This document shows positions 3,767 to 52,818 of a DNA stretch of 64,000 nucleotides, in pieces (the first letter of the stretch is position 1; each line of letters opens with the position of its first letter). Below the pieces are notes generated by a model. The model had not been told where the DNA came from, ran no database searches, and worked only from the letters and a program-made list of their open reading frames with translations. Source of the DNA: an uncultured Clostridiaceae bacterium (GTDB taxonomy: Bacteria; Bacillota; Clostridia; Lachnospirales; Lachnospiraceae); NCBI GenBank assembly GCA_947177415.1, contig CAMWUK010000004.1:1-64000 (forward strand), in the 5' to 3' direction. The translations under genes and the position numbers were made by a program.

Positions 3767-3892
3767 ATGCTTACTGTTGCAGGTCTTGTGTTTGGAGTTT
3801 TATGTCTTATATCATACATAAAGATTGGATGGAATGGTCTGGGTGGTGTGGATTATTGTTTTTTTGAACTACTATTTGGAAATAATAAATAA
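3767..3892 (+). CDS. Possible 41-residue membrane peptide or gene remnant
   Basis: Small frame with an N-terminal hydrophobic run (LTVAGLVFGVLCLISYI) that could span the membrane, and AAGG (3756-3759) 7 nt before the ATG. It lies between a truncated mobile element and a complete one. It is either a genuine small membrane protein or the 3' end of a larger broken gene. No family is recognised. Confidence 0.3.
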   Translation: MLTVAGLVFGVLCLISYIKIGWNGLGGVDYCFFELLFGNNK

Positions 3893-3895
3893 GAT

Positions 3896-4038
3896 GTAAC
3901 TATTCAGGTAGAAACACGCATTTACTGCGTGTTTCGTAAGAAAAAGCAAATCTTAAAATCTTACAATGTTTAAGCCCTATCGCCGAAGGCGAATTAATAT
4001 GGGCTTAAACGTAACTGTTCATGGTTCTGAACAGTTAC
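3896..4038 (+). mobile_element. GTAAC-family MITE-like element, full length, 8-bp duplication (7/8)
   Basis: Left end GTAACTATTCAGGTAG, hairpin 1 (GAAACACGCA/TGCGTGTTTC, 3911-3935), CGTAAG, hairpin 2 (TTTAAGCCC/GGGCTTAAA capped by CGCCGAAGGCG), CGTAAC, and a terminal hairpin ending GAACAGTTAC. Flanks are AATAAGAT (3888-3895) and AATAAGTT (4039-4046), an 8-bp target duplication with one mismatch. Nearly identical copies lie at 16164 and 52492. It carries no gene. Confidence 0.88.
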
Positions 4039-4050
4039 AATAAGTTTATT

Positions 4051-4091
4051 AAGTCTCATAAACCTTATTGTTGGATTTATGGGACTTTTTT
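4051..4091 (+). terminator. Rho-independent terminator before the CODH promoter
   Basis: AAGTCTCATAAACC pairs with GGATTTATGGGACTT (one bulged base) and is followed directly by a T tract. It would end transcription arriving from the lar operon and insulate the CODH promoter at 4275. Confidence 0.7.
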
Positions 4092-4095
4092 GTGC

Positions 4096-4160
4096 TTGAG
4101 TTATATTATATCTCAACTTGTACAATTTTTATTTTAAATACAAGAATAATTGTGCAAGTT
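4096..4160. promoter_or_regulatory. Paired dyads upstream of the CODH promoter (possible operator)
   Basis: Two inverted repeats stand in tandem. TTGAG/CTCAA arms occupy 4096-4116 around an AT core. AACTTGTACAATT (4115-4127) faces AATTGTGCAAGTT (4148-4160), complementary at 12 of 13 positions. They lie about 115-180 bp ahead of the promoter. The dyads are seen directly; a role in binding a regulator of the CODH operon is only inferred. Confidence 0.35.
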
Positions 4161-4274
4161 GCATGTGATGAACCATGGATTCTGAAAAGTCATTGCAAGT
4201 TATACATACTTAATCAATAAAAATGGTAACATTATGTAAGAAAGGATAAAAAGAAGAAAGGTTAAAGTATTTTC

Positions 4275-4303
4275 TTGACAATAAAAACCACCAATGATAA
4301 AAT
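4275..4303 (+). promoter_or_regulatory. Sigma-A type promoter for the CODH-ABC transporter operon
   Basis: TTGACA (4275-4280), a 17-bp spacer and TAAAAT (4298-4303). Transcription would start near 4310, leaving a leader of about 265 nt, most of which is the palindromic element at 4379-4555, before the CODH ATG at 4578. Confidence 0.7.
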
Positions 4304-4378
4304 AAATACATACTAATCATATAAGATAAGTAGGATTTGAAAGCACAAAGCACTATACAAAGAAAAAATAATGTTCCG

Positions 4379-4555
4379 AGATTATTCACGGCCTTAAGCA
4401 TGAACTAAGTCTTATGTAAGCCGAAGGCTAGAAATAAAGACTTAGTCATGCTTAATAGGTCAATTGACAATGATTGCAGACAGGTGACGCTGCCAAGCGG
4501 CTCCTAGCTGCGATAGCAGCGGTCTGCAATATAAGTCGTGAATAATTGAGGATAT
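4379..4555 (+). repeat. Family-B palindromic element in the CODH leader (structured)
   Basis: Ends are ATTATTCACG and CGTGAATAAT (10 bp, perfect). One internal hairpin is ACTAAGTCTT/AAGACTTAGT enclosing AGCCGAAGGCT. A second is ATTGCAGAC/GTCTGCAAT enclosing CGCTGC/GCAGCG. The right end (TGCAATATAAGTCG, then AATAATTGAGGAT) recurs at 12491 and, partly, at 12886 and 51828. Because it lies between promoter and gene it would be transcribed as a folded leader. It could affect expression, but no known riboswitch class is recognised. Confidence 0.6.
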
Positions 4556-4577
4556 TGATTCAAAGAAAGGATAAACT

Positions 4578-6677
4578 ATGAGCGAACATATACATAATCA
4601 TAAACAAGAACATACACACACACATTCACATAATGGCAGTCCTGCAAATATTCATTCCCATCGTGCCTTAATTGGCTTTGATGAACATGGAATTCCTACA
4701 GTTGTTGCAAAGGCTGACCACAATGATGATGACGATCCACAGGCATTTATCCGTGACTATATGAATGCTGTGTCGGAATACCGTAAAACATTTCCATCCA
4801 AGCAGGATGTAATGGAGCAGACCCCTGACCCGGCAGTACGTGAAATGCTTCTTAGAACGGAGCAGCTAGGTATTGATACTACCTTTGACCGTTTTGATAA
4901 ACAAAAGCCACAATGTAATTTTGGACTTGCCGGAATCTGTTGTAAAATCTGTAATATGGGTCCATGCCGGATTACTGCCAAAGCACCAAAAGGAGTGTGT
5001 GGTGCAGATGCTGACCTTATTGTTGCAAGAAACCTCCTTCGTTCTGCTGCCGCAGGTGTGGCACAGCATGGTATGCACGCAAGGGAAGTTATTTTAGCTC
5101 TTAAATGGGCAGCGGAAGGCAAGCTTGATGTGCCAATTATGGGAAAACAGAAAATTAAAGATACTGCAGAAGCTTTTGGAATAAAGACAAAGAACCGTCC
5201 TCTTAAAAAAATTGCATCAGAACTTGCAGATGTTCTTTTAGAAGATCTCTCAAGAACAATTCCAGACGATTATAAAACAATTCGTGCCTGTGCACCTTTA
5301 GAAAGGCAAAAGGTTTGGGAGAATCTGGATATTCTTCCTATTAGTGCCTACCATGAAGTTTTTGAAGCATATCATAAGACAGGCTGTGCTACAGATGGTG
5401 ATTGGAAAAGCATTATGCAGCAGTTTCTACGCTGTGGGCTTGCTTTCACATTTTCCGGTGTTGTGGGTGCTTCCATTGCAACAGATGCCCTGTTTGGTGT
5501 AGGTGACAGAGTTACTGCAAAGGTGAATCTTGGAGCATTAAAAAAGGGATATGTAAATATTGCCGTACATGGTCATTTACCTCTTCTTGTCAGCCAGATT
5601 GTGAAAACAGGCCAGCAGGAGAAGTTTATAGAACTTGCAAAATCGAAAGGTGCAAAAGGAATCCGTTTTTATGGAATATGCTGTTCGGGACTTTCTGCAA
5701 TGTACCGTTATGAGGGGGTAATTCCTCTTTCTAATGCAGTTTCTGCAGAGCTTGTTTTAGGTACAGGTGCCCTTGATTTGTGGGTAGCAGATGTCCAGGA
5801 TGTTTTTCCATCCATAATGGAAGTTGCAAAGTGTTTTAAAACTACCGTTGTTACCACCAGCGAATCCGCAAGACTGCCTGGTGCAGAGCGTTTTGAATAC
5901 GACCATCATCATGCAAATATTGACGAAACGAAAGCGTTGGCAGAAAAAATCGTTCTTCGTGCCATTGAAAGCTTTGAGGAAAGAAAGGGAATCCCTGTCT
6001 ACATACCGCCTTATGAATCAGATGCGGAAGTTGGTTTTTCAGTGGAATATGTACACAAGCGTTTTGGAAGTATGGCACCATTGGCAGAGGCAATAAAAAG
6101 TGGAAAAATTTTAGGAATTGTCAACATGGTAGGATGTAATAACCCAAAGGTGCTTTATGAAAAGGCAATTGTGGATGTAGCAAAGGTTCTGCTTGAAAAT
6201 AATGTTCTCATTTTGTCAAATGGCTGTGCATCTTTTCCTCTTATGAAGCTGGGATATTGTAACACTTCGGCTCTTGAGCAAACCGGGGAAAGTCTTAGGG
6301 AATTTTTACAGCCTGACCTGCCTCCTGTGTGGCATGTTGGCGAATGTATCGACAATACCCGTTCTTCTGGTATTTTTGCAGGCATTGCGGGAGAACTGGG
6401 AAAGAAAATTTATGAATTGCCATTTGCATTTTCCTCACCAGAATGGGGAAATGAAAAAGGAATTGATGCAGCACTAGGTTTCAGGCTTATGGGCGTAAAT
6501 TCCTATCATTGTGTAGAAGCACAAATATATGGTTCTAAAAATGTAATAGAATTTTTAAAACATGGTACAAAGGAGCTTTTAGGCTCTACTATGAACGTTG
6601 ACACAGATCCAGTATCACTAGGTCACAAAATTGTGGAAGATATGAAGCTAAAAAGAAAGCAGTTGGGATGGGATTAA
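4578..6677 (+). CDS. Ni-dependent CO dehydrogenase catalytic subunit homologue (CooS-like), altered C-cluster ligand
   Basis: Family enzymes interconvert CO and CO2 at a Ni-Fe-S C-cluster. D- and B-cluster cysteines are intact at C113, C121, C122, C125, C130 and C141. C-cluster positions visible are HGH (H331/H333), GICC (C368/C369), GCNNPK (C520), NGCAS (C550) and GECIDN (C590), plus a conserved lysine K627. However, the motif usually written V-D-x-Q-C reads VADVQD, with Asp at residue 408 where a ligand cysteine is expected. The N-terminus adds a His- and Asp-rich stretch of about 55 residues, suggesting metal binding. No cooC or cooF lies nearby; an SsuABC-like importer follows in the same operon. 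CO oxidation activity is therefore not assured. AAAGGA at 4564-4569 precedes the ATG by 8 nt. Confidence 0.88.
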   Translation: MSEHIHNHKQEHTHTHSHNGSPANIHSHRALIGFDEHGIPTVVAKADHNDDDDPQAFIRDYMNAVSEYRKTFPSKQDVMEQTPDPAVREMLLRTEQLGIDTTFDRFDKQKPQCNFGLAGICCKICNMGPCRITAKAPKGVCGADADLIVARNLLRSAAAGVAQHGMHAREVILALKWAAEGKLDVPIMGKQKIKDTAEAFGIKTKNRPLKKIASELADVLLEDLSRTIPDDYKTIRACAPLERQKVWENLDILPISAYHEVFEAYHKTGCATDGDWKSIMQQFLRCGLAFTFSGVVGASIATDALFGVGDRVTAKVNLGALKKGYVNIAVHGHLPLLVSQIVKTGQQEKFIELAKSKGAKGIRFYGICCSGLSAMYRYEGVIPLSNAVSAELVLGTGALDLWVADVQDVFPSIMEVAKCFKTTVVTTSESARLPGAERFEYDHHHANIDETKALAEKIVLRAIESFEERKGIPVYIPPYESDAEVGFSVEYVHKRFGSMAPLAEAIKSGKILGIVNMVGCNNPKVLYEKAIVDVAKVLLENNVLILSNGCASFPLMKLGYCNTSALEQTGESLREFLQPDLPPVWHVGECIDNTRSSGIFAGIAGELGKKIYELPFAFSSPEWGNEKGIDAALGFRLMGVNSYHCVEAQIYGSKNVIEFLKHGTKELLGSTMNVDTDPVSLGHKIVEDMKLKRKQLGWD

Positions 6678-6711
6678 AGTAAAAGTCAAGGAAAGAAAGG
6701 ATAAGATTATT

Positions 6712-7668
6712 ATGAAGAAAAGAAAGATACAAAAATATGCTGCAATATTTGCGATAGCAGTACTGACATTTGCCTTATCCTCCTGCAGTAAGGGAACTGG
6801 CAAGGCATCTGACGGCACAGCTTCTCCTAAAAATACTGTAAAAATAGCATATCTGCCAATTACACATTCTCTGGCTGTTTTGGAAGAAGCAGAAGAATTG
6901 GAAGAAAGCACTGGTTTAAAGATTGAGTTAGTAAAATATGGATCTTGGCCGGAACTTTTAGATGCTCTTAATACAGGTCAGGTAGATGGTGCAGAGGTGC
7001 TTATTGAACTTGCAATGAAATCAAAACAGGAAGGTATTGGAATTAAGGCAGTAGCCCTAGGTCATAAGGATGGTAATGTTATTGTAACCAATAAAAATAT
7101 CAAATCTATATCCGATCTGAAAGGCAAGAAGTTTGCCATACCTCACCGCCAGTCCTCACACAATATTTTACTTAACGATGCATTGGCAGAGGCAGGTTTA
7201 ACCACAGCCGATTTAGAGGTGGTAGAGCTTGCACCAACGGAAATGCCATCAGCGTTAGCATCAGGTCAGATTGATGGATACTGTGTGGCAGAACCATTTG
7301 GGGCAAAGGCAGTTTCCCTTGATGTAGGACAGGTGCTTTTAAAGTCTGAAGAAATTTGGAAAGATTCCCTATGCTGTGGATTGGTATTGACAGATGCCTT
7401 CCTTAATGACAGAACTACAGATGCAAAATCATTTGTAGAAAGTTATAAAAAGGCAGGAAAAAATCTTACTCAAGAAAAGGCGAAAGAGGTTGCTAAAAAA
7501 TACTTGAACTCGGATGATAAGGTACTTGACCTTTCTCTTCAATGGATTTCATACGATGATCTTGAAATTACAGAAGAGACCTACAATACCCTTGTAGAAA
7601 AAGTGAAGAAGTATGGTCTTTCTGACAATCCGCCTGTGTTTGATGATTTTGTAAAAAAAGATTTGTAA
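6712..7668 (+). CDS. ABC transporter substrate-binding lipoprotein (SsuA/TauA/NMT1-like)
   Basis: Extracytoplasmic binding protein with a lipoprotein signal (MKKRKIQKYA, hydrophobic core, lipobox LSSC), followed by a periplasmic-binding type II fold of about 290 residues. It resembles binding proteins for sulfonates, nitrate and thiamine precursors. The substrate is unknown; linkage to CODH and the lar genes makes a metal or cofactor precursor possible, but nothing in the sequence shows this. The stop codon TAA (7666-7668) begins TAACAGTTTAG, a degenerate end of the GTAAC repeat. The permease and ATPase genes follow, completing the importer. Confidence 0.85.
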   Translation: MKKRKIQKYAAIFAIAVLTFALSSCSKGTGKASDGTASPKNTVKIAYLPITHSLAVLEEAEELEESTGLKIELVKYGSWPELLDALNTGQVDGAEVLIELAMKSKQEGIGIKAVALGHKDGNVIVTNKNIKSISDLKGKKFAIPHRQSSHNILLNDALAEAGLTTADLEVVELAPTEMPSALASGQIDGYCVAEPFGAKAVSLDVGQVLLKSEEIWKDSLCCGLVLTDAFLNDRTTDAKSFVESYKKAGKNLTQEKAKEVAKKYLNSDDKVLDLSLQWISYDDLEITEETYNTLVEKVKKYGLSDNPPVFDDFVKKDL

Positions 7669-7757
7669 CAGTTTAGAACCTGCAAAAGTGATGGACAAAT
7701 CAGACAACAGAGTATTTGACTTATGTGCAAAAGGCATGCACAAGAATGGAGAATAAA

Positions 7758-8519
7758 ATGAAAAAATTAATTTCTATAAAAAATATAATCGTTTCATTTG
7801 CTTTTATTATAGTTTTATGGCAGATTGTTTTTTTAACAAGCGATTTTAACGAAGCTTTGTTCCCGTCGCCTTATCAGGCATTGCAGGCTTTTCTTGAAAT
7901 GATAAAAGATGGTTCAATTTTTGTTCATATTGGTACAAGTATGTATCGGTTTGGAGCAGGTTACATAAGTGCCATTGTAGCTGCCGTTTTGCTGGGGCTG
8001 GTTTTAGGTTGGTTTAAAGGGATATTTCAATACGTTAACCCATTAGTACAGCTTTTACGGCCAATTTCGCCTATGGCTTGGATGCCGTTTATTGTATTAT
8101 GGTTTGGTATTGGTGATACTCCTGCTATTGTTATTATTTTTATAGCAGCATTTTTTCCTGTGTTATTATCCACGGTTTCTGCGGTAGGTGGTATCAATCC
8201 TATTTATTTTAAAGTTTCAAAAAACTTTGGTATTAAACAGCCACAAATTATGTGGAAGGTAATTTTCCCAGCAGCTTTTCCACAAATTGCTAATGGTATT
8301 CACCTTGCACTGGGAACAGCATGGATCTTCTTAGTTGCTGGCGAAATGGTAGGAGCTCAGTCAGGTCTTGGATATTTAATTATTGATGCCCGAAATAATC
8401 TTCGTGCAGATATCCTTCTTGCAACGATAATTGTAATAGGTTTGATAGGATTATTGCTTGATACCCTGCTTAAGTGGGCAGAAAAGAAAATTTTGAAAGC
8501 GTGGGGAGGTGCTTTGTAA
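7758..8519 (+). CDS. ABC transporter permease (SsuC/TauC-like)
   Basis: Membrane subunit of the importer, 253 residues, with several hydrophobic spans and the BPD_transp_1-type EAA region near FGIKQPQIMWKVIFPAAFPQ. The start at ATG 7758 is preferred over in-frame ATGs at 7716 and 7746 because GGAG (7748-7751) is 6 nt upstream and the N-terminus then runs directly into the first membrane helix. Its stop TAA (8517-8519) overlaps the ATG of the ATPase gene, so the two are translationally coupled. Confidence 0.88.
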   Translation: MKKLISIKNIIVSFAFIIVLWQIVFLTSDFNEALFPSPYQALQAFLEMIKDGSIFVHIGTSMYRFGAGYISAIVAAVLLGLVLGWFKGIFQYVNPLVQLLRPISPMAWMPFIVLWFGIGDTPAIVIIFIAAFFPVLLSTVSAVGGINPIYFKVSKNFGIKQPQIMWKVIFPAAFPQIANGIHLALGTAWIFLVAGEMVGAQSGLGYLIIDARNNLRADILLATIIVIGLIGLLLDTLLKWAEKKILKAWGGAL

Positions 8520-9289
8520 TGTATATCGAAGTTAAGGATGCAGTAAAAACTTTTAAACAAAATAGTGGAGAATTCACTGCACTGGACCATGTTTCATTAG
8601 ATATTGAAAGAGGGGAATTTATCTGTCTCTTAGGACCTTCCGGTTGTGGAAAAAGTACACTACTAAATGCAATTGCAGGCTTTGACAAGATAACAGAAGG
8701 TTCCATAAAAATCAATGGAGAAGAAGTGACACAGCCATCTATTCATAATGTCACTATTTTTCAAAACTATGGATTATTGCCCTGGCGGTCAGTTCTAAAA
8801 AATGTGGAATTGGGACTTGAGGCAAAAAAGATTCCGAAAGAGGAACGAAGGGAAATTGCAGAAAAATACATTGATCTTGTAGGGCTTTCCGAATTTAAAA
8901 ATTCCCATCCAAACCAGCTATCTGGAGGAATGCAGCAACGTGTTTCCATAGCAAGAGCCTTAGCAGTTTCCCCTGATATTATATTTATGGATGAACCCTT
9001 TGGGGCATTGGATGCTATAACCCGGATGAAACTTCAGGATGATATTTTAAATATTTCAAAACAGGAAAATAAGACCATTATTTTTGTTACTCATGATATT
9101 GAGGAAGCGGTTTTTCTGGCAGATAGGATAGTAGTAATGACACCAAACCCCGGAAGAATTAAAAGTGTGGTTACTGTTCCCCTTACACATTATCGGGAAC
9201 GCACAAGCGAGGATTTTTTATTGGTACGAAATAAAATCTTTGAATTGTTTAACATGAAGCCAGATGATAATATTGAGTATTTTATTTAG
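8519..9289 (+). CDS. ABC transporter ATP-binding protein (SsuB/TauB-like)
   Basis: ATPase of the same importer, 256 residues, with Walker A (GPSGCGKST), Q-loop region (FQNYGLLPW), signature LSGGMQQRVSIARAL, Walker B (IIFMDEPFGALD) and H-loop (VTHDIEEAV). The ATG at 8519 overlaps the permease stop by one base, with GGGGAGG at 8503-8508 as ribosome site. It ends the CODH operon; a strong terminator hairpin follows at 9341-9391. Confidence 0.9.
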   Translation: MYIEVKDAVKTFKQNSGEFTALDHVSLDIERGEFICLLGPSGCGKSTLLNAIAGFDKITEGSIKINGEEVTQPSIHNVTIFQNYGLLPWRSVLKNVELGLEAKKIPKEERREIAEKYIDLVGLSEFKNSHPNQLSGGMQQRVSIARALAVSPDIIFMDEPFGALDAITRMKLQDDILNISKQENKTIIFVTHDIEEAVFLADRIVVMTPNPGRIKSVVTVPLTHYRERTSEDFLLVRNKIFELFNMKPDDNIEYFI

Positions 9290-10411: not shown

Positions 10412-10556
10412 GTTACTGTTCACTCACAAGCTTGACACTTGCTGTCAAGCTATGTGACAAGAATCTAGAACAGCCAAGAATCCAGCCTTTCGCCGAAGGC
10501 GAATTATAAATAGGCTGGATTCCGTTACTGTTTGCACCGTAGGTGTGAACAGTAAC
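10412..10556 (+). mobile_element. GTTAC-family MITE-like element with perfect 8-bp target duplication
   Basis: Ends GTTACTGTTCAC and GTGAACAGTAAC. Internal hairpins include AGCTTGACA/TGTCAAGCT and AATCCAGCC/GGCTGGATT capped by CGCCGAAGGCG. AGTAGAAT flanks it on both sides (10404-10411 and 10557-10564). It sits inside the remnant of an ABC-ATPase gene; removing one duplication plus the element restores a reading frame running into LSGGQ. Confidence 0.9.
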
Positions 10557-12616: not shown

Positions 12617-12759
12617 GTTACTGTTCACACCTCCAGTGCTCACAGTAACAAATCTGGTCTATTTATAATTCGCCTTCGTCGAAAGACCAGATTCTTCACT
12701 ACCACTACTTATTCTATAGGACTTTGCAGCAAGTGCAAAGTCCTATAGTAAACAGTAAC
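12617..12759 (-). mobile_element. GTTAC-family MITE-like element, reverse orientation, perfect 8-bp target duplication
   Basis: Ends GTTACTGTTCAC and AACAGTAAC. Internal stem AATCTGGTCT/AGACCAGATT carries the reverse of the CGAAGGCG loop (CGCCTTCG), and a second stem is TAGGACTTTGC/GCAAAGTCCTA. GATTTATA flanks both sides (12609-12616 and 12760-12767). Orientation is assigned from the loop motif. The following 120 bp hold nothing recognisable. Confidence 0.9.
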
Positions 12760-12958: not shown

Positions 12959-13642
12959 ATGACTAAAAAGAAACTTGCATTAGAAATTATAAATCGTTTA
13001 AAAGAAGAATATCCAGATGCCGGGTGTACTTTAGACTATAAGGAAGCATGGAAATTACTAGTTAGTGTTCGTTTGGCAGCACAATGCACCGATGCCCGTG
13101 TAAATATGATAGTACCAAAACTATACGAAAAATATCCAGATGTGAATGCACTGGCAGATGCGGACGTAGAAGAGATAGAAGAAATTGTAAGACCTTGTGG
13201 TCTAGGGCACAGCAAAGCAAGGGATATCAGTGCATGTATGAAGATATTAAGAGATGAATACCAAGGAAAAGTTCCTGATAATTTTAATGACTTATTAAAA
13301 TTGCCAGGGGTGGGGCGTAAAAGTGCAAATCTAATTATGGGAGATGTATTTGGGAAACCTGCAATTGTAACAGATACGCATTGTATCCGTTTAGTAAACC
13401 GGATGGGGCTGGTTGATGGAATAAAAGAACCAGGAAAAGTAGAGAAAGCATTGTGGGAAATTATTCCTCCCGAAGAAGGAAGCGATTTTTGCCACAGATT
13501 GGTTTACCACGGAAGAGATGTCTGTACGGCAAGGACAGCTCCTCATTGTGAAAAATGTTGCTTGAAAGATATATGTGCAAAAAATGTAACAGTTCAGGTA
13601 GGTCTTGCACACTCCGCTGTGCAAGACCGTAAAAAAGACTAA
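12959..13642 (+). CDS. nth: Endonuclease III, C-terminus extended by mobile-element sequence
   Basis: Base-excision-repair DNA glycosylase/AP lyase for oxidised pyrimidines. The helix-hairpin-helix LPGVGRKSANLI is followed by the catalytic Asp region (VTDTHCIRLVNRMGL) and four cysteines for the [4Fe-4S] cluster (C-x7-C-x2-C-x5-C, in CTARTAPHCEKCCLKDIC). From residue 210 the reading frame enters the GTAAC element at 13586, adding about 18 residues (VQVGLAHSAVQDRKKD) unrelated to the family. Without the insertion the protein would end within a few codons of ICAKK, close to normal length. Confidence 0.92.
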   Translation: MTKKKLALEIINRLKEEYPDAGCTLDYKEAWKLLVSVRLAAQCTDARVNMIVPKLYEKYPDVNALADADVEEIEEIVRPCGLGHSKARDISACMKILRDEYQGKVPDNFNDLLKLPGVGRKSANLIMGDVFGKPAIVTDTHCIRLVNRMGLVDGIKEPGKVEKALWEIIPPEEGSDFCHRLVYHGRDVCTARTAPHCEKCCLKDICAKNVTVQVGLAHSAVQDRKKD

Positions 13643-13721
13643 AACAGGATTGGAATTGGGCAATTTACAATGCGAAGCTTGCCCAATTCCGTAACAGGTC
13701 AGCTCTTGGCTGAACTGTTAC
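13586..13721 (+). mobile_element. GTAAC-family MITE-like element inserted in the nth 3' end
   Basis: Left end GTAACAGTTCAGGTAG, hairpin 1 (GTCTTGCACA/TGTGCAAGAC), CGTAAAAAAGACTAAAACAG, hairpin 2 (GGAATTGGGCAA/TTGCCCAATTCC), CGTAAC, and terminal hairpin ending CTGAACTGTTAC. Flanks are CAAAAAAT (13578-13585) and CAAAAAAA (13722-13729), 7 of 8 matching. Its first part is translated as the C-terminus of Nth. Confidence 0.85.
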
Positions 13722-14746: not shown

Positions 14747-15967
14747 TTATTTATTCTTTTCGGCTTCTGCCATTTTCATAGCACGAACTTTTAGAGATAA
14801 ACCAAATAAGTTGATGAAACCATCTGCATCATGATGATCATATAAATCACCAGTTGTAAAGGATGCAAGGCTTTCATTGTAAAGAGAATATGGAGAAGTA
14901 GTTCCGGCTTTAATGATATTACCTTTGTAAAGTTTGAATTTTACTTCACCAGTTACATATTGCTGTGTAACTTCAATAAATGCCTGAATAGCTTCACGTA
15001 TTGGTGTAAACCATTTTCCTTCGTAAACAATCTGTGCAAATTTATTTCCCAAATCCTTCTTTAATGTATAAGTATCTCTGTCAAGAATCAATTCTTCCAA
15101 TTGCTGATGAGCCTCCATTAAGATGGTTCCGCCAGGAGTTTCATAAACACCACGGGATTTCATACCAACCACACGGTTTTCTACGATATCAATAATACCA
15201 ATACCATGCTTTCCGCCAAGTGTATTTAACTCTGTAATAATTTCAGATACTTTCATTTTCTTGCCATTCAATTCAACTGGAACACCTTTTTCAAATTTCA
15301 TGGAAACATATTCTCCTTCATCAGGTGCTTTTTCAGGAGAAGTGCCAAGTACCAGCAAATGATCATAATTTGGCTCATTAGCAGGATCTTCTAATTCAAG
15401 ACCTTCATGACTGATATGCCATAAGTTTCTGTCACGGCTATAGCTGGAATCAGCAGAAAATGGCAAATCAATACCATGTTTTTTACAATATTCAATTTCT
15501 GCTTCTCTGGAATCCATCTGCCAGCTATCTAATCTCCAAGGAGCAATAATCTTGATATCTGGAGCTAATGCTTTGATTCCAAGTTCAAAACGAATCTGGT
15601 CATTTCCTTTACCTGTTGCACCATGACAGATAGCAACCGCATTTTCTTTTCTTGCAATTTCTACTAATCTCTTTGCAATGACAGGTCTTGCCATAGAAGT
15701 TCCAAGTAAATATTTGTTTTCATAAACAGCAGCAGCCTGCACACAAGGAACAATATAATCGTCACAGAATTCATCAATGACATTTTCAATATATAATTTG
15801 GATGCACCAGATAATTTTGCTCTTTCTTCCAAATCATCCAGTTCTTCCCCTTGTCCACAGTTGATGCAGCAGCATACAACATCATAGTCATAATTTTCTT
15901 TTAACCAAGGGATAATTGCTGTGGTGTCTAGTCCGCCTGAGTAGGCAAGAATAACTTTTTCTTTCAT
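14747..15967 (-). CDS. argG: Argininosuccinate synthase
   Basis: Joins citrulline and aspartate with ATP in arginine synthesis, in the cytoplasm. The 406-residue, full-length protein shows the N-type PP-loop AYSGGLDTTA at residues 8-17 and the family stretches ATGKGNDQIRFE and RDRNLWHISHEG. GAGGTAAC lies just before the ATG on the minus strand. argH is not adjacent. A consensus ARG box (15994-16007) sits about 30 bp upstream of the start, so ArgR-type repression by arginine is expected. Confidence 0.96.
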   Translation of the reverse strand: MKEKVILAYSGGLDTTAIIPWLKENYDYDVVCCCINCGQGEELDDLEERAKLSGASKLYIENVIDEFCDDYIVPCVQAAAVYENKYLLGTSMARPVIAKRLVEIARKENAVAICHGATGKGNDQIRFELGIKALAPDIKIIAPWRLDSWQMDSREAEIEYCKKHGIDLPFSADSSYSRDRNLWHISHEGLELEDPANEPNYDHLLVLGTSPEKAPDEGEYVSMKFEKGVPVELNGKKMKVSEIITELNTLGGKHGIGIIDIVENRVVGMKSRGVYETPGGTILMEAHQQLEELILDRDTYTLKKDLGNKFAQIVYEGKWFTPIREAIQAFIEVTQQYVTGEVKFKLYKGNIIKAGTTSPYSLYNESLASFTTGDLYDHHDADGFINLFGLSLKVRAMKMAEAEKNK

Positions 15968-16163: not shown

Positions 16164-16297
16164 GTAACTATTCAGGTAGAAACACGCATTTACTGCGTGT
16201 TTCGTAAGAAGATATAAATTTTACAGTGTTTAAGCCCCTTGGCGAAGGCGAATTATAATGGGCTTAAACGTAATTGTTCATCGTTCTGAACAGTTAC
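16164..16297 (+). mobile_element. GTAAC-family MITE-like element, 8-bp duplication (7/8)
   Basis: Same type as the copies at 3896 and 52492: GTAACTATTCAGGTAG, hairpin GAAACACGCA/TGCGTGTTTC, CGTAAG, hairpin TTTAAGCCC/GGGCTTAAA with the CGAAGGCG loop, then a terminal hairpin to GTTAC. Flanks are CAACAAAT (16156-16163) and CGACAAAT (16298-16305), matching at 7 of 8. It interrupts the gene remnant that ends at 16407. Confidence 0.87.
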
Positions 16298-21138: not shown

Positions 21139-21166
21139 GTAACTATTCATGGTTCTGAACAGTTAC
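21139..21166 (+). repeat. Minimal GTAAC-family hairpin
   Basis: 28-bp hairpin with arms GTAACTATTCA and TGAACAGTTAC, equal to the terminal hairpin of longer copies. The flanks AAAATGTG and AAAACACC do not form a convincing duplication. Confidence 0.65.
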
Positions 21167-23340: not shown

Positions 23341-23463
23341 ATAACAGGTCAGCCAAGGGATGGGAACCCTGCAAGCTTCGCATGTAAATTGCCCAATTCT
23401 AATCCTGTTTTAGTCTTTTTACGGTCTGCACAGCGGAGTGTGCAGACCTACCTGAACTGTTAC
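23341..23463 (-). mobile_element. GTAAC-family MITE-like element, reverse orientation, perfect 8-bp target duplication
   Basis: On the minus strand: GTAACAGTTCAGGTAG, hairpin GTCTGCACA/TGTGCAGAC, CGTAAAAAGACTAAAACAGG, then the hairpin-2 and right-end parts, ending at ATAAC. AAATATGT flanks both sides (23333-23340, 23464-23471). Same subtype as the copies at 13586 and 39862. It lies 50 bp after the histidine kinase stop. Confidence 0.88.
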
Positions 23464-23586: not shown

Positions 23587-23876
23587 TAGGGATTTGCGAA
23601 ACTCAATTTACTCATAGAGTTTTTGTGCAATATTCACATATCAACACAAGGCACGTTTTCACTGCTCTCAACCGTAACGGTACATATGCTAGTAAAGCCT
23701 AAGAAACCGAGCCAAAAGGCGAAGGTTGATTAGCTGCTTTACTGTATGCATGCGAAGCGTTTTTGCTAGGTGCTAAAAGACAGCACCTAAGTACCGACGG
23801 TCTCGAAAGCACCTTGCTTATGATATGTAAATCTGCACAAAATAATTTAAGTTAACAAGAGTTTCGCAATTACCTA
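23587..23876. mobile_element. Family-E composite palindromic element, about 290 bp, flanked by a 12-bp direct repeat
   Basis: Ends are TAGGGATTTGCGAAACTC and GAGTTTCGCAATTACCTA, complementary at 16 of 18 positions. Inside are nested pairs TTGTGCA/TGCACAA and ACATATCA/TGATATGT, then separate hairpins AGTAAAGC/GCTTTACT and TAGGTGCT/AGCACCTA, giving a multibranched fold. AACAACAAATAA occurs at 23575-23586 and 23878-23889, most simply a target duplication. No coding content. Another weak inverted repeat (GTTGTTCTA, 23487-23495, with TAGAACAAC, 23572-23580) lies just left. Confidence 0.7.
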
Positions 23877-23910
23877 AAACAACAAATAAACAAGAAAGGA
23901 GATGCATATT

Positions 23911-25498: not shown

Positions 25499-25522
25499 CA
25501 TTTAACAATTATTAAACACTGT

Positions 25523-25595
25523 GTGTAATCTGCCCTCTGTGAGCAAGCTCCCTCGTGCAATTTGCACATATACTTTTGCATGGCTGAACTGTTAC
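25523..25595 (-). repeat. Truncated GTAAC-family element
   Basis: On the minus strand it starts GTAACAGTTCAGCCATGC and follows the copy at 36353 for about 70 bp (including GTTGCAC-type and GAGGGAGCTTGCTCACAG segments), then diverges. The distal end is missing and no target duplication is found. Confidence 0.65.
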
Positions 25596-28530: not shown

Positions 28531-28554
28531 TTAAGATACCTTTCTATATATTCA

Positions 28555-28729
28555 CTATCTTCAGGTAGAATCTTGCACTCTGCTGCAAGGTTCGTATAAG
28601 TGCCAAGTGCTGCTTTTGCACTTGTGTGCATCATCGTTTACGAAACTCCCATGCGGAATATATTTATGGTGATGCCTAATTGTGCGAGGCATGGGAGTTT
28701 TGTAACTGTTCAGAATCATTAATAGTTAC
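28555..28729 (+). repeat. GTAAC-family element, left end decayed
   Basis: TCTTCAGGTAG, hairpin 1 (ATCTTGCA/TGCAAGGT), CGTATAAG, a long internal stem (AAACTCCCATGC/GCATGGGAGTTT), then TGTAACTGTTCAG and a terminal hairpin to AGTTAC. The first bases (CACTA for GTAAC) are altered and no sure target duplication remains. Confidence 0.65.
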
Positions 28730-32868: not shown

Positions 32869-32924
32869 GTTACTGTTTACAGGTAGTACTTTGCACTTGC
32901 TGCAAAGTATGTAAGAACAATAAC
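32869..32924 (+). mobile_element. 56-bp GTTAC-family element with perfect 8-bp target duplication, between grpE and dnaK
   Basis: GTTACTGTTTACAGGTAG, one hairpin (TACTTTGCA/TGCAAAGTA), then TGTAAGAACAATAAC. AAATTAAG flanks both sides (32861-32868 and 32925-32932). It contains only the hairpin-1 module of the longer elements, which shows that this module alone can be mobile. Inserted inside the heat-shock operon. Confidence 0.85.
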
Positions 32925-34905: not shown

Positions 34906-35039
34906 GTAACAATAAATATATCTGTTCAGTACCTGAACAAATACCAATAAGTTATGATAAAGATTTGGAACTACAGCTTGATGATACTCAAGCTGTAGTT
35001 TCCGATTATGTATAATTGTTCATGGTTCTGAACAGTTAT
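34906..35039 (+). repeat. Diverged GTAAC-family element between dnaK and dnaJ
   Basis: GTAACAATAA, a CTGTTCAG/CTGAAC hairpin, a stem GGAACTACAGCTTGA/TCAAGCTGTAGTTTCC, and the terminal hairpin TAATTGTTCA/TGAACAGTTAT. No T tract follows, so it is not an evident terminator. No duplication is seen. Confidence 0.6.
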
Positions 35040-36325: not shown

Positions 36326-36352
36326 CGTTTAGCAGGGATTTGGTAACAGTTC

Positions 36353-36528
36353 AGCCATGCAAAAGTATATGTGCAAGTTGCACGAGGGAGCTTGCTCACA
36401 GAGGGCAGCTTGCACATATACTTTTATATGCTTAACGCCATACATGAATATTTTGCCAGCCAATTTATAATACTTTTAGTCATGTTGTATATTCTGGCAA
36501 AATATGAATGGCATGGCTGACCTGTTAC
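36353..36528 (+). repeat. 176-bp GTAAC-family element with 18-bp terminal repeats
   Basis: GTAACAGTTCAGCCATGC and GCATGGCTGACCTGTTAC are complementary at 17 of 18 positions. Internal stems are AAAAGTATATGTGCAAG/CTTGCACATATACTTTT and GCCA...TATTTTGCCAG/CTGGCAAAATA. The flanks GGGATTTG and ACGAAATT do not match, so the duplication has decayed or been lost. A truncated relative is at 25523. Confidence 0.8.
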
Positions 36529-38622: not shown

Positions 38623-38653
38623 GTAACAGTTCAGTCCTTGGCTGAACTGTTAC
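38623..38653 (+). mobile_element. 31-bp minimal GTAAC element with 8-bp duplication (7/8)
   Basis: GTAACAGTTCAG, a 7-nt loop, CTGAACTGTTAC. Flanks are TAAAGCAG (38615-38622) and TAAAGTAG (38654-38661). The right duplication runs into the AGGAGG site of the next gene. It is the smallest copy with apparent insertion flanks. Confidence 0.75.
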
Positions 38654-39861: not shown

Positions 39862-39994
39862 GTAACAGTTCAGGTAGGTCTGCACACTCCGCTGTGCAGA
39901 CCGTAAAAAAGACTAAAACAAGATTGGAATTAGGCAATTTACATGCGAAGCTTGCAGGGTTCCGTAACAGGTCAGCCCCCGGCTGAACTGTTAC
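39862..39994 (+). mobile_element. GTAAC-family MITE-like element with perfect 8-bp duplication, between nifS-like and thiI
   Basis: GTAACAGTTCAGGTAG, hairpin GTCTGCACA/TGTGCAGAC, CGTAAAAAAGACTAAAACA, a hairpin-2 region with ATGCGAAGCTTGC, CGTAACAGGTCAGC and a terminal hairpin to CTGAACTGTTAC. AACATATA flanks both sides (39854-39861, 39995-40002). Confidence 0.9.
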
Positions 39995-40019: not shown

Positions 40020-41204
40020 ATGATGAAATATAAAGCATTTTTGATTAAATATGCAGAGATCGGCATTAAGGGAAAGAATCGTTATATTTTTGAAAATGCA
40101 TTAGTAAGTCAGATAAAGTGTGCATTACAAAAGGTAGATGGATCCTTTCAAGTTACAAAAGAACAGGGCCGCCTTTATGTAGAGGCTTTATCAGATTATG
40201 ATTATGAAGATGTAACAGAAGCATTAAAATGCGTATTTGGAATTGTAGCTATTTGTCCAGTAAAAATCATAGAAGACACTACATGGGAAACGTTGGTTAA
40301 GGAAGTTGCAAAGTATATGGAAGAAACTTATGAAGATAAGAATTTTACTTTTAAAGTAGCTGCCAAACGGGCAGATAAGAATTATCCATATACTTCCCCG
40401 GAAATTTGTATAGAAATGGGAGCTTATTTGTTGGAGCAGTTTCCGGAGCTTACTGTAGATGTACACAATCCTGAGGTTGTTGTGAATGTAGAGATTCGTT
40501 CCAAAGCATATATTTATTCGGTTATTATTCCCGGATTAGGTGGACTTCCTGTAGGAACTGCTGGAAAAGCCATGGTACTCTTATCTGGTGGAATTGATAG
40601 TCCGGTTTCCAGTTATATGGTTGCAAAACGGGGAGTAGAAGTAGAAGCTGTATATTTCCATGCACCACCATATACCAGTGAACGTGCAAAACAAAAAGTA
40701 ATAGACTTAGCAAAAAAAGTATCAAAATATACTGGCCCAATTAAACTTCATGTAATTAATTTTACAGAAATACAAATGTATATTTACGATCAATGCCCTC
40801 ACGATCAGTTAACGATTATTATGAAACGTTATATGGTAAAATTAGCGGAAGCATTAGGAGAAAAGGATGGTTGTCTTGGTTTAGTTACAGGAGAAAGTAT
40901 TGGTCAAGTGGCTAGCCAGACAATGCAAAGTATGGCAGTTATCGAAGAAGCATGTTCTATGCCAATTTATAGACCAGTTATTGCTTTTGACAAACAGGAT
41001 ATTGTAGATATTGCAGAGAAGATTGGTACTTATGAAATATCCATCCAGCCTTATGAAGATTGCTGTACTACATTTGTAGCTAAACATCCCGTAACAAAAC
41101 CTACCTTAAAATCCATTTGTAAATCAGAAACACATTTGGAAGAAAAGATTGGGGAAATGTTTCAAAAAGCATTAGATACTGTAGAAATTATTGAGATTGC
41201 ATAA
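40020..41204 (+). CDS. thiI: tRNA 4-thiouridine synthetase ThiI
   Basis: Makes s4U in tRNA (position 8) and can feed thiamine thiazole synthesis. 394 residues: ferredoxin-like and THUMP domains (residues 1-165), then a PP-loop ATPase (LLSGGIDSPVS). It lacks the C-terminal rhodanese domain of the enterobacterial protein, as is normal in Gram-positives that use a separate desulfurase. Two adjacent ATGs (40020, 40023) are possible starts. Element D begins right after its stop. Confidence 0.94.
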   Translation: MMKYKAFLIKYAEIGIKGKNRYIFENALVSQIKCALQKVDGSFQVTKEQGRLYVEALSDYDYEDVTEALKCVFGIVAICPVKIIEDTTWETLVKEVAKYMEETYEDKNFTFKVAAKRADKNYPYTSPEICIEMGAYLLEQFPELTVDVHNPEVVVNVEIRSKAYIYSVIIPGLGGLPVGTAGKAMVLLSGGIDSPVSSYMVAKRGVEVEAVYFHAPPYTSERAKQKVIDLAKKVSKYTGPIKLHVINFTEIQMYIYDQCPHDQLTIIMKRYMVKLAEALGEKDGCLGLVTGESIGQVASQTMQSMAVIEEACSMPIYRPVIAFDKQDIVDIAEKIGTYEISIQPYEDCCTTFVAKHPVTKPTLKSICKSETHLEEKIGEMFQKALDTVEIIEIA

Positions 41205-41441
41205 GAACAAAGTGGGCAAGCCCACATCAACTCCCTCTAACCCCTCATTCATGAGGGGATTGCACACTTTGCGTGCCAGATGCGTGTTGCATGTTTTTTG
41301 CAACAATATTCCTTACGCATCTGTGCACATCCTAAGCGGAGCGTTTTTTCTTTATAGGACGAACTTTCCTATAAAGGAAAAAGATGTCCAATAGGGGAGT
41401 ATTCCACTATTTGGACATCCATTATGTAACTTTATTTGTTC
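41205..41441. repeat. Element D: multihairpin palindromic block directly after thiI
   Basis: It starts at the base after the thiI stop with GAACAAAGT and ends ACTTTATTTGTTC. In between are GTGGGCAAGCCCAC, CCCCTCATTCATGAGGGG, AGATGCGT/ACGCATCT, CTTTATAGGA/TCCTATAAAG and GATGTCCAATA/TATTTGGACATC. This is at least five hairpins inside a closing pair. No coding frame. A structured RNA or a non-autonomous mobile element is possible; no duplication was found. Confidence 0.6.
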
Positions 41442-50217: not shown

Positions 50218-50253
50218 AGGTTTTGGAACTTTTTCGAGAAAGGATTGGTGGAT

Positions 50254-51756
50254 ATGAGAGGTATCAAAACTCCAGTTACACAATATAGACATAAAGTATT
50301 TACGGAAATTGCAAAGGTTGCTTTTGAATCTGAAAATATAAATAATGATATAGAAGCTATCCCCTATAAACTAGTAAATGGAGATGAACCAAATTACCGT
50401 GAAAGTATATATAGGGAAAGAGCTGTTATATCAGAGCGTGTACGTTTGGCAATGGGAATGTCCCTGCGACCGGAAGATAAACCGGTACATATTACAGATG
50501 GCATAGAAGAGAGCAACATAGACAGCAAATATTATGAACCACCTCTTATGCAAGTTATTCCATCTGCTTGTGATGCTTGCGAGGATAACAAATACGAAGT
50601 AAGCAATATGTGTCGTGGCTGTGTTGCACATCCATGTCAGCAAGTATGTCCTCAAAATGCTATTTCTATGGTTAATGGACATTCTTATATTGACCAGTCA
50701 AAATGTGTAAAATGCGGAAGATGTAAAAACGTTTGCCCTTATGATGCCATTTCTAAAAAAGAAAGACCTTGTTCGAAAGCTTGTGGTGTAAAGGCCATTG
50801 AATCTGACTTTCTTGGCAGGGCACATATTAACCCAGACAAATGTGTTTCTTGTGGTATGTGCATGGTTAGCTGTCCATTTGGAGCAATTGCAGATAAGTC
50901 GCAAATATTCCAATTAATCCGTGCTATGAAGAATGATAATAGCATTATGGCAATTATTGCACCAGCCATTGTAGGGCAATTTGGTAAAAATGCAACTATA
51001 AAAAATATTAAAGCAGCTCTTCAGGAAATTGGATTTGCAGAGGTTTTTGAAGTAGCATTAGGTGCTGATATGGGAGCGGTAAAAGAAGCCCATCATTATG
51101 TGGAGAAAGTCACAACAGGAGAGTTGCCATTTCTTCTCACTTCTTGTTGCCCATCTTGGTCAATGTTGGCAAAAAAATATTTTCCTGAGATGATTGATAG
51201 TGTGTCCAATGCGTTAACACCAATGGTTGCAACTGCCCGTTCCGTAAAAAAACAACACAAAGATTGTAAGGTAGTGTTTATTGGACCATGTGCAGCGAAA
51301 AAATTAGAGGCTTCCAGAAAAAGTGTACGTAGTGATGTGGATTTTGTAATCACCTTTGAAGAATTATCAGCTATTTTTGACGCAAAAGGAATAAACTTTG
51401 ATAACTACGAAAAAGAAGCATCTATACACAATGCAACTGGGGCTGGAAGAGGATATGCCGTTGCTGGCGGTGTTGCCAATGCAATCGAGAAATGTATTCA
51501 TGAGTATTATCCAGAGGTAGAAGTTAATATCGAACATGCAGAAGGTTTGGATGATTGTAAGAAAATTTTATTACAGGCAAAAGCAGGGCGTAAGAATGGC
51601 TGTCTAATTGAAGGTATGGGCTGTCCAGGAGGATGTATTGCCGGAGCTGGTACCAATATTTCTATTCAGGATGCGAAGAAAGAGGTAAATGCATTTGTAG
51701 CACATTCTAGCAAGCCACTTCCTCCAAAAGAACTAAAAGATATTGAATTATTGTAA
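50254..51756 (+). CDS. [FeFe] hydrogenase, group-B-like, with N-terminal 4Fe-4S domains
   Basis: 500 residues. Iron-sulfur motifs in the first 220 residues: CVAHPCQQVCP, CVKCGRCKNVCP, CSKACG and CVSCGMCMVSCP. H-cluster motifs: L1 TSCCPSW, L2 GPCAAKK (Gly in place of the usual Met), L3 GMGCPGGCIAGAG. The L2 change fits group B rather than group A enzymes. Expected to exchange electrons between ferredoxin and protons or to sense H2. ATG 50254 lies 9 nt after AAAGGA; TTG 50245 and GTG 50248 are less likely starts. Confidence 0.9.
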   Translation: MRGIKTPVTQYRHKVFTEIAKVAFESENINNDIEAIPYKLVNGDEPNYRESIYRERAVISERVRLAMGMSLRPEDKPVHITDGIEESNIDSKYYEPPLMQVIPSACDACEDNKYEVSNMCRGCVAHPCQQVCPQNAISMVNGHSYIDQSKCVKCGRCKNVCPYDAISKKERPCSKACGVKAIESDFLGRAHINPDKCVSCGMCMVSCPFGAIADKSQIFQLIRAMKNDNSIMAIIAPAIVGQFGKNATIKNIKAALQEIGFAEVFEVALGADMGAVKEAHHYVEKVTTGELPFLLTSCCPSWSMLAKKYFPEMIDSVSNALTPMVATARSVKKQHKDCKVVFIGPCAAKKLEASRKSVRSDVDFVITFEELSAIFDAKGINFDNYEKEASIHNATGAGRGYAVAGGVANAIEKCIHEYYPEVEVNIEHAEGLDDCKKILLQAKAGRKNGCLIEGMGCPGGCIAGAGTNISIQDAKKEVNAFVAHSSKPLPPKELKDIELL

Positions 51757-51790
51757 TTCTACAGTTGTAGAATGTAAAACTTCTTTTTTG
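51757..51790 (+). terminator. Possible terminator after the hydrogenase gene
   Basis: ATTCTAC/GTAGAAT hairpin followed after about 12 nt by TTCTTTTTT. The gap before the T tract lowers confidence. Confidence 0.4.
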
Positions 51791-51827
51791 TAAAATGATA
51801 CTATGTAAGAAGAATCTAATTTACTTT

Positions 51828-51866
51828 GGATTATTTATGCTTAATAAGTTATGAATAATTGAGGTT
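51828..51866 (+). repeat. Minimal family-B element
   Basis: GGATTATTTATGCTTAATAA then GTTATGAATAATTGAGG: only the two ends of the family-B repeat, joined directly. Confidence 0.5.
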
Positions 51867-51964
51867 TAGTTACTTGATTTAACTCTTTGATTATATATCT
51901 TGGCGGAAATTATTTTCTGCTAAGATATATAATCAGAAGAAATGATGGATTTAATGGAGGAAAT

Positions 51965-52495
51965 ATGGAACTGGAAACGGAACGACTATTATTACGTCCA
52001 TGGTCAATAGAAGATGCCAACACACTATTACAATTGGGAAGTGATGCAAGAGTAGGTCCTGCTGCAGGTTGGCCAGTTCTTCACAACATAGATGATAGTA
52101 AAAAAATGATAGAGTATATTTTTTCCTGTTGGGGTTTCTTTGCATTAGAGCGAAAAAATACAAATGAGTTAATAGGCTCTGTAGGAATTTTAGTTGGAAA
52201 AGCCAGTAATTTTAATATAGCTGATGATGAAGGAGAAATTCTTTACTGGCTTGGAGTTCCTTATTGGCATCAGGGATATGCTACAGAGGCGGTAAAAAAA
52301 ATTATCCAGTATGGATTTTCTTGCTTGGAATTAAATCAAATCTGGTGTGGTTATTTTGAAGGAAATGATGCATCTAAAAAGCTTCAGGAAAATTGTGGTT
52401 TCCAATATCAATACACCATACCTAATAAAGTTCAAACATTGGCAAATGAATGGCATATACAACATGTTACATGCTTAAAAAATAATTGCTTGTAA
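51965..52495 (+). CDS. GNAT acetyltransferase, RimJ/RimL type
   Basis: 176 residues, with ETERLLLRPWSIEDA at the N-terminus and WHQGYATEAVKKIIQYGF as the acetyl-CoA site. The family acetylates N-termini of ribosomal proteins or small molecules; the substrate here is unknown. ATG 51965 follows GGAGGAAAT. The stop TAA (52493-52495) is supplied by the first bases of the GTAAC element at 52492, so the original C-terminus has been cut or changed by the insertion. Confidence 0.82.
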   Translation: MELETERLLLRPWSIEDANTLLQLGSDARVGPAAGWPVLHNIDDSKKMIEYIFSCWGFFALERKNTNELIGSVGILVGKASNFNIADDEGEILYWLGVPYWHQGYATEAVKKIIQYGFSCLELNQIWCGYFEGNDASKKLQENCGFQYQYTIPNKVQTLANEWHIQHVTCLKNNCL

Positions 52496-52626
52496 CTATT
52501 CAGGTAGAAACACGCATTTACTGCGTGTTTCGTAAGAAAAAGTGAATTCTGGTTGTTCTAAGCCCTTCGCCGAAGGCGAATTTATATGGGCTTAGAACGT
52601 AACTGTTCATGGTTCTGAACAGTTAC
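52492..52626 (+). mobile_element. GTAAC-family MITE-like element with perfect 8-bp duplication, at a gene's stop codon
   Basis: GTAACTATTCAGGTAG, hairpin GAAACACGCA/TGCGTGTTTC, CGTAAG, hairpin CTAAGCCC/GGGCTTAG with CGCCGAAGGCG, CGTAAC and terminal hairpin to GAACAGTTAC. AATTGCTT flanks both sides (52484-52491, 52627-52634). The following 190 bp hold only an 18-codon frame from ATG 52661 with a good ribosome site, of doubtful meaning. Confidence 0.92.
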
Positions 52627-52818
52627 AATTGCTTTTGTTTCAGTGAAAGGGGAATGGAATATGAGTCAACATCAGTTTCTATCGAAAATACAAAAGTTAC
52701 ACAGTATAATAGTGTAGTAGTTTAGAAGAAATGAAGGGAAGGTTAAGGATATCTATTCGTGAAATAACCATTTTGCGAATAGATGGCATTGGAAATTAAC
52801 ATAAGAAAGGGGTTTATT

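Follow-up and report, generated by a model that had tools for sequence, protein, structure and literature searches.

The first 64,000 nucleotides of contig CAMWUK010000004.1 from an uncultured Clostridiaceae bacterium (this whole stretch is referred to as the window) contain 17 copies or fragments of a family of short repeats with GTAAC/GTTAC ends, 8-bp-flanked copies and fragments taken together (Table 1). Ten of them had been named in a sequence-only reading of the same DNA, which described six perfect and four 7/8 flanking repeats of 8 bp, copies in both orientations, no genes inside them, and about 17 copies or fragments in 64 kb. All ten were found at the same places with the same scores, the remaining statements held as well, and the well-duplicated copies are indeed short. 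Two of its descriptions need adjustment. "Palindromic" applies to the inverted ends but understates the prediction, which is of three separate hairpins, and the copy at 38623 does have 7/8 repeats but consists of the 31-bp right-end hairpin alone. Five types of full element can be told apart: type A (mostly 134-136 bp, GTAACTATTCAGGTA), type B (133-138 bp, GTAACAGTTCAGGTAGGTC), type C (143-146 bp, GTTACTGTTCAC), type D (186-192 bp with long inverted ends) and type E (124 bp).

The host draft genome (G000) comprises 4,634,058 bases (4.63 Mb) in 250 contigs, and our host sample, the window plus 20 fetched stretches on contigs C1-C7, covers 415,673 of these. Fetched loci carry L numbers; L004, L006, L007, L008 and L009, among others, lie in the host and L108, L110 and L111 in its closer sister species, G002. 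End-pairs at most 400 bp apart were scored over 8 flanking bases, with shuffled right flanks as the control. The flanks agreed at 7/8 or 8/8 positions in 63 of 174 pairs against 1.045 expected, an excess that excludes chance as the cause of the duplications, even if a few places are counted more than once among the 63, through overlapping or nested pairs. The duplication is 8 bp long and no longer (0 of 40 perfect cases extend to 9), and since the 8-mers vary between copies they do not belong to the element, a point on which the sequence-only reading had made its proposal depend. Nested ones apart, the well-duplicated copies measure 27-192 bp and end in GTAACWRTTCA or GTTACTGTTCAC. Exact GTAACWRTTCA ends occur 663+676 = 1339 times genome-wide, compared with 8+9 = 17 for the reversed-pattern control. 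The sample holds 167 exact ends at a density above the genome average (0.40 versus 0.29 per kb), and 90 clusters of at least two ends, a count that also admits type C ends and one mismatch (control, 0 clusters). Rough extrapolation gives an estimate of about 700 elements in the host genome.

Short and gene-less, with inverted ends, a fixed 8-bp duplication, empty sites and many dispersed copies, the elements have the features by which miniature inverted-repeat transposable elements (MITEs) are recognized, and the data support their being non-autonomous MITEs inserted with 8-bp target duplications. Some are nested in one another (L007 6974-7238, L006 1282-1620 and, in G002, L110 14252-14396); in the L007 and L110 nests the insertion falls within a GTAAC end.

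Filled and empty sites in sister species

Sites were compared with two sister-species genomes, the closer G002 (95-98% identical to the host in most aligned pieces) and the more distant G003 (about 80-94%). The empty sites that the sequence-only reading had proposed to look for exist, and retain one copy of the 8-bp repeat. For 18 elements of the window and L009, G002 could be aligned at 14 sites (exactly empty at 4, with a net difference of -8; the same at 7; different at 3) and G003 at 9 (exactly empty at 4, of the same length at 1, different at 4). Conversely, 16 of 28 G002 elements were alignable in the host (1 empty, 8 the same, 7 different) and 11 in G003 (5 exactly empty, 1 at -12, 5 different). 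Four G003 elements yielded three alignable sites in the host (1 the same, 2 different) and three in G002 (all different).

At the site of the 52492 copy, G002 is empty and has a single AATTGCTT. The 10412 site has one AGTAGAAT in G002 and reads through as VELSGGQKQ; about 43 adjoining bases differ, hence its score as different. The copy at 13586-13721 overlaps the 3' end of the open reading frame (ORF) at 12959-13642. Other sites record damage in the host. The damaged element at 23341 corresponds to an intact 133-bp type B copy in G002, and that at 32869 is present as a full 145-bp type C copy in G002, as a 56-bp deleted form in the window and not at all in G003. The MITE set is dense and probably recently active.

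Two results of the site comparison weigh against so simple a history. None of the four G003 elements has an empty site in G000 or G002, and at two sites the host and G002 have differing elements, a finding that insertion followed by collapse does not simply account for: the 186-bp type D element at 36343 is faced in G002 by a 31-bp hairpin (L110 8890-8920), and the diverged element at 28541 by a type A element with the duplication AGATACTT (L110 1050-1184). Both sites look as if elements had been swapped or reinserted.

Predicted hairpins, intergenic location and very high copy number would also suit repetitive extragenic palindromes (REP/REPIN-type repeats) moved by a single-strand transposase (HUH, or REP-associated tyrosine transposase, RAYT). 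The 8-bp target duplications, exact in length and variable in sequence, and the cleanly empty sites contradict this, since REPINs are not known to duplicate their target, and we give the idea practically no credence.

Candidate drivers among IS66-family transposases

We hold with considerable confidence that the copies are MITEs inserted with 8-bp duplications and likely moved in trans by ISBst12-like single-ORF IS66 transposases that would recognize GTAAC/GTTAC ends. The sequence-only reading had guessed at an IS66-like driver; that guess gains support and can be sharpened to the ISBst12-like group, since genes of the IS66 type lie between the same ends, with 8-bp duplications, in relatives of the host. 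PF03050 matches were present in 4 of 14 relatives. One relative (G020) has a divergent IS66 gene between GTAACTGTTCAG-type ends, and a scan of named genomes with its protein gave 20 loci of what we call clade 1. A GTAAC-type end (0 or 1 mismatch) lies near 17 of these; 5 of the 20 have both ends, and 2 of those 5 a perfect 8-bp duplication (L030, GAATAAAG; L032, AAAAATAT). The L030 element, from an Anaerostipes sp., is 1797 bp long with GTAACTGTTCAG ends and a single 482-aa IS66 ORF (PF03050, 154.9 bits, cut-off 23.1; NF033517, 262.8 bits, cut-off 180), other ORFs within it being of 55-144 aa and mostly overlapping the 482-aa one. The L032 element, from the metagenome-assembled genome of another Lachnospiraceae, spans 1696 bp between GTAACTGTTCAG-type ends. 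A family-wide search found matches in 29 of 299 genomes, from which further loci were taken. Among 32 of these that were examined (L065 and L077 stand outside this number), five have both GTTAC-type ends (L055, L062, L051, L056, L057) and are counted as clade 2; the duplication is perfect in L055 (GCCGGAAT) and L062 (GTATTAGA) and not matching or not measurable in L051, L056 and L057. Four such insertion sequence (IS) elements, two per clade, thus carry perfect 8-bp duplications.

The two end types of the MITEs recur in the two clades: clade 1 has GTAACTRTTCAG as in types A, B, D and E, and clade 2 has GTTACTGTTCAC as in type C. A transposase tree of 20 rows, rooted at the midpoint and supported by the Shimodaira-Hasegawa approximate likelihood-ratio test (SH-aLRT) only, was built without L050, L054 and L062 (by choice) and L034 (178 aa, below the length cut). 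It places the GTAAC-end rows on one side of a branch (SH-aLRT 99), groups the GTTAC-end rows with one row of unknown ends (SH-aLRT 100), and separates both clades and L053 from IS66 of the GTAAGCG type (SH-aLRT 100). By eye, types A, B and E match the known drivers over about 11-12 end bases, a type D copy (L013) has one end in common with L032 over 19 bases, and in G002 the end that follows a broken clade 2 transposase relic is the same over 16 bases as the left end in one subtype of type C.

Under the proposed mechanism, a clade 1 transposase would have mobilized types A, B, D and E and a clade 2 transposase type C. The driver probably persisted in the host until a short time ago, as a sister of about 97% identity lacks some of the copies, and would by now be lost or degraded.

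Several observations count against this assignment. A PF03050 profile search of the host draft found no IS66 gene, and with the clade proteins no intact driver appeared there (clade 1, one 53-residue relic; clade 2, none). In six congeners PF03050 and the clade 2 protein gave broken or partial genes only, the clade 1 protein having been searched in one of them, G005. Of the 20 clade 1 loci, 3 show no GTAAC-type end, and in clade 1 and clade 2 alike 3 of the 5 two-ended loci either have no duplication or are situated at the edge of a contig. The transposase of L032 is broken into two frames and that of L062 has an internal stop. The tree leaves open the order of clade 1, clade 2 and L053, and its clade 2 group includes the row of unknown ends. 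The likeness of types A, B and E to the known drivers appears confined to the 11-12 end bases, and what lies beside the G002 relic could instead be the edge of an adjacent type C MITE.

From this short match and the lack of an intact IS66-like gene in the host draft one might argue that types A, B and E owe their movement to a different DDE transposase, so far unsampled, and that the 11-12 bases common with ISBst12-like ends are coincidental or convergent. We consider this improbable: end sequence and exact 8-bp duplication both agree, the longer matches of types D and C (19 bases with L032, 16 with the end beside the G002 relic) point the same way, and two end types fall in two transposase groups.

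Other sources were considered and set aside. A search for a full-length autonomous copy, that is, end-pairs 320-12,000 bp apart with identical 8-mers in each stretch of the 415,673-base sample, returned one pair, a nested MITE of 339 bp. Canonical IS66 as driver in the host is at odds with the absence of PF03050 matches in G000, and the canonical IS66 elements of relatives have GTAAGCG ends where found (L021, L072), not GTAAC.

In G032 the last 34-35 residues of a gene of the ISBst12-like kind were found five times, on at least three occasions at the very start of a contig, a pattern that a multi-copy element collapsed in assembly would produce; a search of the host found no terminal driver pieces of this kind. 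In Ruminococcaceae bacterium P7, six contigs (L038-L041, L043, L044) begin inside the same ISBst12-like gene and continue into a GTAACTATTCAGAG end, as for a multi-copy and perhaps active driver in that species.

The name and features of the ISBst12 group are those given in the accessible text of PMC12898284. It describes ISDge4, a member with ends GTGACTACTCAGCA/GTAACTGCTCAGCA, a single gene for a transposase of 449 aa and a repeat of 8 bp, whose transposition has been seen. The likely drivers resemble ISDge4 and the group in their single-ORF IS66 transposase, GTAACTGCTCAG-like ends and 8-bp duplication (PMC12898284). Their own ends are GTAACTRTTCAG or GTTACTGTTCAC, and they are placed in the group by these features. 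Unlike members of the group, the window elements are gene-less, and the host draft has a relic only. Canonical IS66 (L021, L072) belongs to the same transposase family and also has an 8-bp duplication (GTCATTTG at L072), but its GTAAGCG ends diverge after GTAA and it falls on a separate side of the transposase tree.

Predicted three-hairpin design and solo hairpins

One predicted order is common to types A, B, C and E: left end, hairpin H1, linker, hairpin H2 and hairpin H3. In A, C and E, H2 holds an inner TTCGCCGAAGGCGAA-like hairpin. In H3 the right end pairs across a short loop with an inner left-end copy, giving an end-to-end hairpin of 27-33 bp. By eye, the diverged element at 28541-28729 is laid out as AGGTA-H1-GTATAAG followed by H2 and H3. 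When 50 copies from the host and G002 (21 A, 14 B, 14 C, 1 E) were folded singly, H3 formed in 40, and as RNA all 6 of 6 tested gave predicted folds with z-scores of -4.46 to -10.23. The type B alignment supports 37 pairs with 97.9% of cells paired and 11 pairs changed on both sides (a level reached in 0 of 500 shuffles; slid partners at most 38.0% paired), and the joint alignment of A, C and E supports 25 pairs with 96.8% paired and again 11 changed on both sides (0 of 500 shuffles; slid partners at most 45.3%). Since the controls use the alignments from which the structures had been taken, and several of the changes are inherited, they overstate the evidence. The A, C and E consensus fold misses the lower H2 stem, apparently through a one-column shift by MAFFT; H2 was therefore judged from the single folds and the type B alignment.

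A conserved fold is called into question by the remaining 10 of 50 single folds (3 A, 6 B, 1 C), which pair the outer ends without H3, by covariation that leans on a few inherited changes, and by template switching, which can make palindromes symmetrical without selection. A DNA search found the type A body in 5 of 61 genomes (G000, G002 and G003 strong, G006 and G019 weak). Other genera have related designs, among them a 133-bp copy with a perfect duplication in G019 (L136) and a 148-bp copy in G008 whose fold has three hairpins (L150). Elements of 142 bp in G031 and 173 bp in G035 have long ends, two main inner hairpins and perfect duplications.

The shortest elements, of 27-32 bp, account for 11 of the 63 pairs with good duplications and may be explained by the inner left-end copy. 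This copy and the outer one are direct repeats, and recombination between them, or slippage during replication, would delete the body and leave a 27-33-bp solo hairpin with its duplication, much like the solo long terminal repeat (LTR) of a retrotransposon. One site shows the hybrid junction from which we infer such a collapse. At L009 3281-3308 the host has 28 bp where G002 has a 135-bp type A copy, and the host end at L009 3281, TGAACAGTTAT, combines the inner TGAACAGTTAC and the outer TGAATAGTTAT of the full copy in G002, as would be left by recombination between two direct end copies; G003 has a degenerate remnant of similar length. Base 7 distinguishes the two ends of type A, being A in the outer end of 19/21 copies and G in the inner end of 21/21. 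A search for type A hairpins away from the forward H2 stem gave 14 matches, 3 with A7 and 5 with 7/8 or 8/8 duplications. Solos make up all but two of the 14, since L006 140 lies in a full copy and window 28702, with A7, is H3 of 28541-28729; this leaves window 21139 and L008 1346 as solo hairpins with the outer-end base.

Alternatively, the 27-32-bp hairpins could be transposed units in their own right, the smallest MITEs. Besides their share of the well-duplicated pairs, the solo at L009 3891, which is empty in both sisters, speaks for this and against collapse, as the 28-mer may have moved directly; that at 15834 is filled in G002 and empty in G003. The hybrid junction at L009 3281, the two solos with A7 and the longer remnant, B-like in sequence, that G003 has at the 38623 site all favour collapse, and two ends 6-9 bp apart are sterically unlikely to be both bound by transposase. 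Independent movement is accordingly an account we find unlikely, if less so than the unsampled transposase discussed above.

As for the role of the three hairpins, our preferred guess is a folded single strand that would act in transposition. A further, rather tentative idea is that the elements form a structure-selected class of MITEs, in which the fold would be kept across genera as the displaced or copied-out single strand of ISBst12-type transposition must fold in this way; the inner left-end copy would then be a built-in collapse device, and the 27-33-bp solo hairpins a bacterial counterpart of solo LTRs.

Table 1. Elements, predicted hairpins of the type copy and Clostridiales-1 RNA copies (window coordinates unless a locus is given)
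Feature	Position	Strand	Remarks
Type B fragment, left end GTAATAGTTCAGGTAGGTCTGCACA	3664..3745	+	right limit approximate
Type A, 143 bp	3896..4038	+	duplication 7/8 (AATAAGAT/AATAAGTT)
D-like left end, short fragment (GTAACAGTTTAGAACCTGCAAAAGTGAT)	7665..7692	+	right limit approximate
Type C, 145 bp	10412..10556	+	duplication AGTAGAAT 8/8
Type C, 143 bp	12617..12759	-	duplication GATTTATA 8/8; G002 filled, G003 empty
Type B, 136 bp	13586..13721	+	duplication 7/8; site empty in G002 and G003
Type A, 134 bp	16164..16297	+	duplication 7/8
Type A solo right-end hairpin, 28 bp	21139..21166	+	flanks 4/8, no clear duplication
Type B, 123 bp, damaged right-end hairpin	23341..23463	-	duplication AAATATGT 8/8
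Type D fragment	25510..25595	-	
Diverged element, similar design	28541..28729	+	left end uncertain
Type C, internally deleted, 56 bp	32869..32924	+	duplication AAATTAAG 8/8
Type A solo right-end hairpin, 28 bp	35012..35039	.	flanks 5/8, no clear duplication
Type D, 186 bp, long inverted ends	36343..36528	+	flanks 3/8, no duplication
Type B solo right-end hairpin, 31 bp	38623..38653	.	duplication 7/8
Type B, 133 bp	39862..39994	+	duplication AACATATA 8/8; filled in G002
Type A (type copy), 135 bp	52492..52626	+	duplication AATTGCTT 8/8
Predicted H1 of type copy	52507..52531	+	GAAACACGC-loop-GCGTGTTTC
Predicted H2 of type copy	52555..52598	+	lower stem and inner TTCGCCGAAGGCGAA
Predicted H3 of type copy	52599..52626	+	GTAACTGTTCA TGGTTC TGAACAGTTAC; inner left-end copy and right end
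RF01699 copies, host	window 53882-54012; L012 11419-11576; L020 12393-12550, 14556-14713; L017 5495-5588		
RF01699 copies, G002	L108 12810-12967; L111 14071-14228		

Genomic location, neighbouring repeats and related systems

By simple ORF calls, 38 of the 43 full copies of types A, B, C and E in the sample are intergenic, in a sequence of which 81.7% is covered by ORFs of at least 100 aa. Genes flank 34 of the 38 on both sides, in tandem, divergent and convergent gaps in the ratio 25/6/3, about proportional to the bases available in such gaps (41,834/9,995/5,491); relative to tandem genes, 17 copies lie in the same and 8 in the opposite orientation. This pattern accords better with insertion and subsequent filtering by selection than with a role in regulation. 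A reading as terminators or regulators was rejected for want of a clear bias in gap type or orientation. In a wider form, the elements would be structured RNAs or terminator-like regulatory elements kept for host function, with mobility incidental. The strong predicted RNA folds, the compensatory changes in predicted stems, the intergenic location and the 7 of 14 alignable sites occupied alike in G002 would agree with such a function. An Rfam search at gathering score found no family over the elements, with sub-threshold matches only in the stretch tested. The distribution over gaps and orientations just described, and the exactly empty sites in the more distant G003, where 1 of the 9 alignable sites is of similar length, also speak against it, and we regard it as very unlikely. 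Searches of viral contigs (with one exact 28-mer pattern) and of phages (with one type A copy) gave no match.

The sole gathering-score match of the Rfam search, at window 53882-54012, belongs to a repeat distinct from the MITEs, the Clostridiales-1 RNA (RF01699, 48.5-124.2 bits), a separate dispersed repeat with 7 copies (Table 1). Three of the seven (L012, L111 and L020 14556) lie next to or within sequence of type A MITEs and the others do not; the window and L111 copies occupy the same site in two species. The Clostridiales-1 'RNA' may itself be a mobile element. Elsewhere in the host, L004 4596-9187 has five tRNA-like RNAs (RF00005, 29.9-51.2 bits) with 41-57 nt replacing the anticodon arm, none of which was called by ARAGORN. 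They surround a gene at about 7220-8732, the product of which presumably resembles the Ro60/TROVE protein, and are possibly a bacterial Y-RNA-like array. Further high-copy repeats with many matches in G002 and G003 lie at window 4376-4554, 23601-23877, 41197-41382 and 54404-54545, and a minus-strand ORF at 57408-59456 contains 27-bp and 33-bp tandem repeats at 58242-58511 and 59011-59142.

Enterobacterial repetitive intergenic consensus (ERIC) sequences and other high-copy bacterial MITEs differ from the present elements in sequence and ends, and the repeat unit of pneumococcus (RUP) in its ends and duplications. ERIC and similar MITEs are likewise gene-less, intergenic and foldable, ERIC reaching up to 711 copies in Photorhabdus (review, PMC10969869). 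The main text of that review mentions IS66 0 times, and its accessible text has no counterpart to the nested right ends and solo hairpins of the present elements. RUP and BOX of pneumococci are also small repeats predicted to fold; RUP, linked to IS630-Spn1, has been hypothesized to be moved in trans by an IS, and BOX is modular (PMC3049150). The accessible text of open PubMed Central literature, including PMC3281130, PMC3189936, PMC8024623, PMC12898284, PMC10969869 and PMC3049150, contains no description of these elements.

In conclusion, the analysis ties a very dense family of small bacterial repeats to a little-studied transposase group, the ISBst12-like IS66, with two MITE end types that match two groups of transposases. 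It also brings out a predicted design of nested ends and three hairpins, for which a solo hairpin is the end state. Because the sister species offer sites in the filled, the empty and the collapsed condition, MITE birth, loss and the extinction of the driver are open to direct test.

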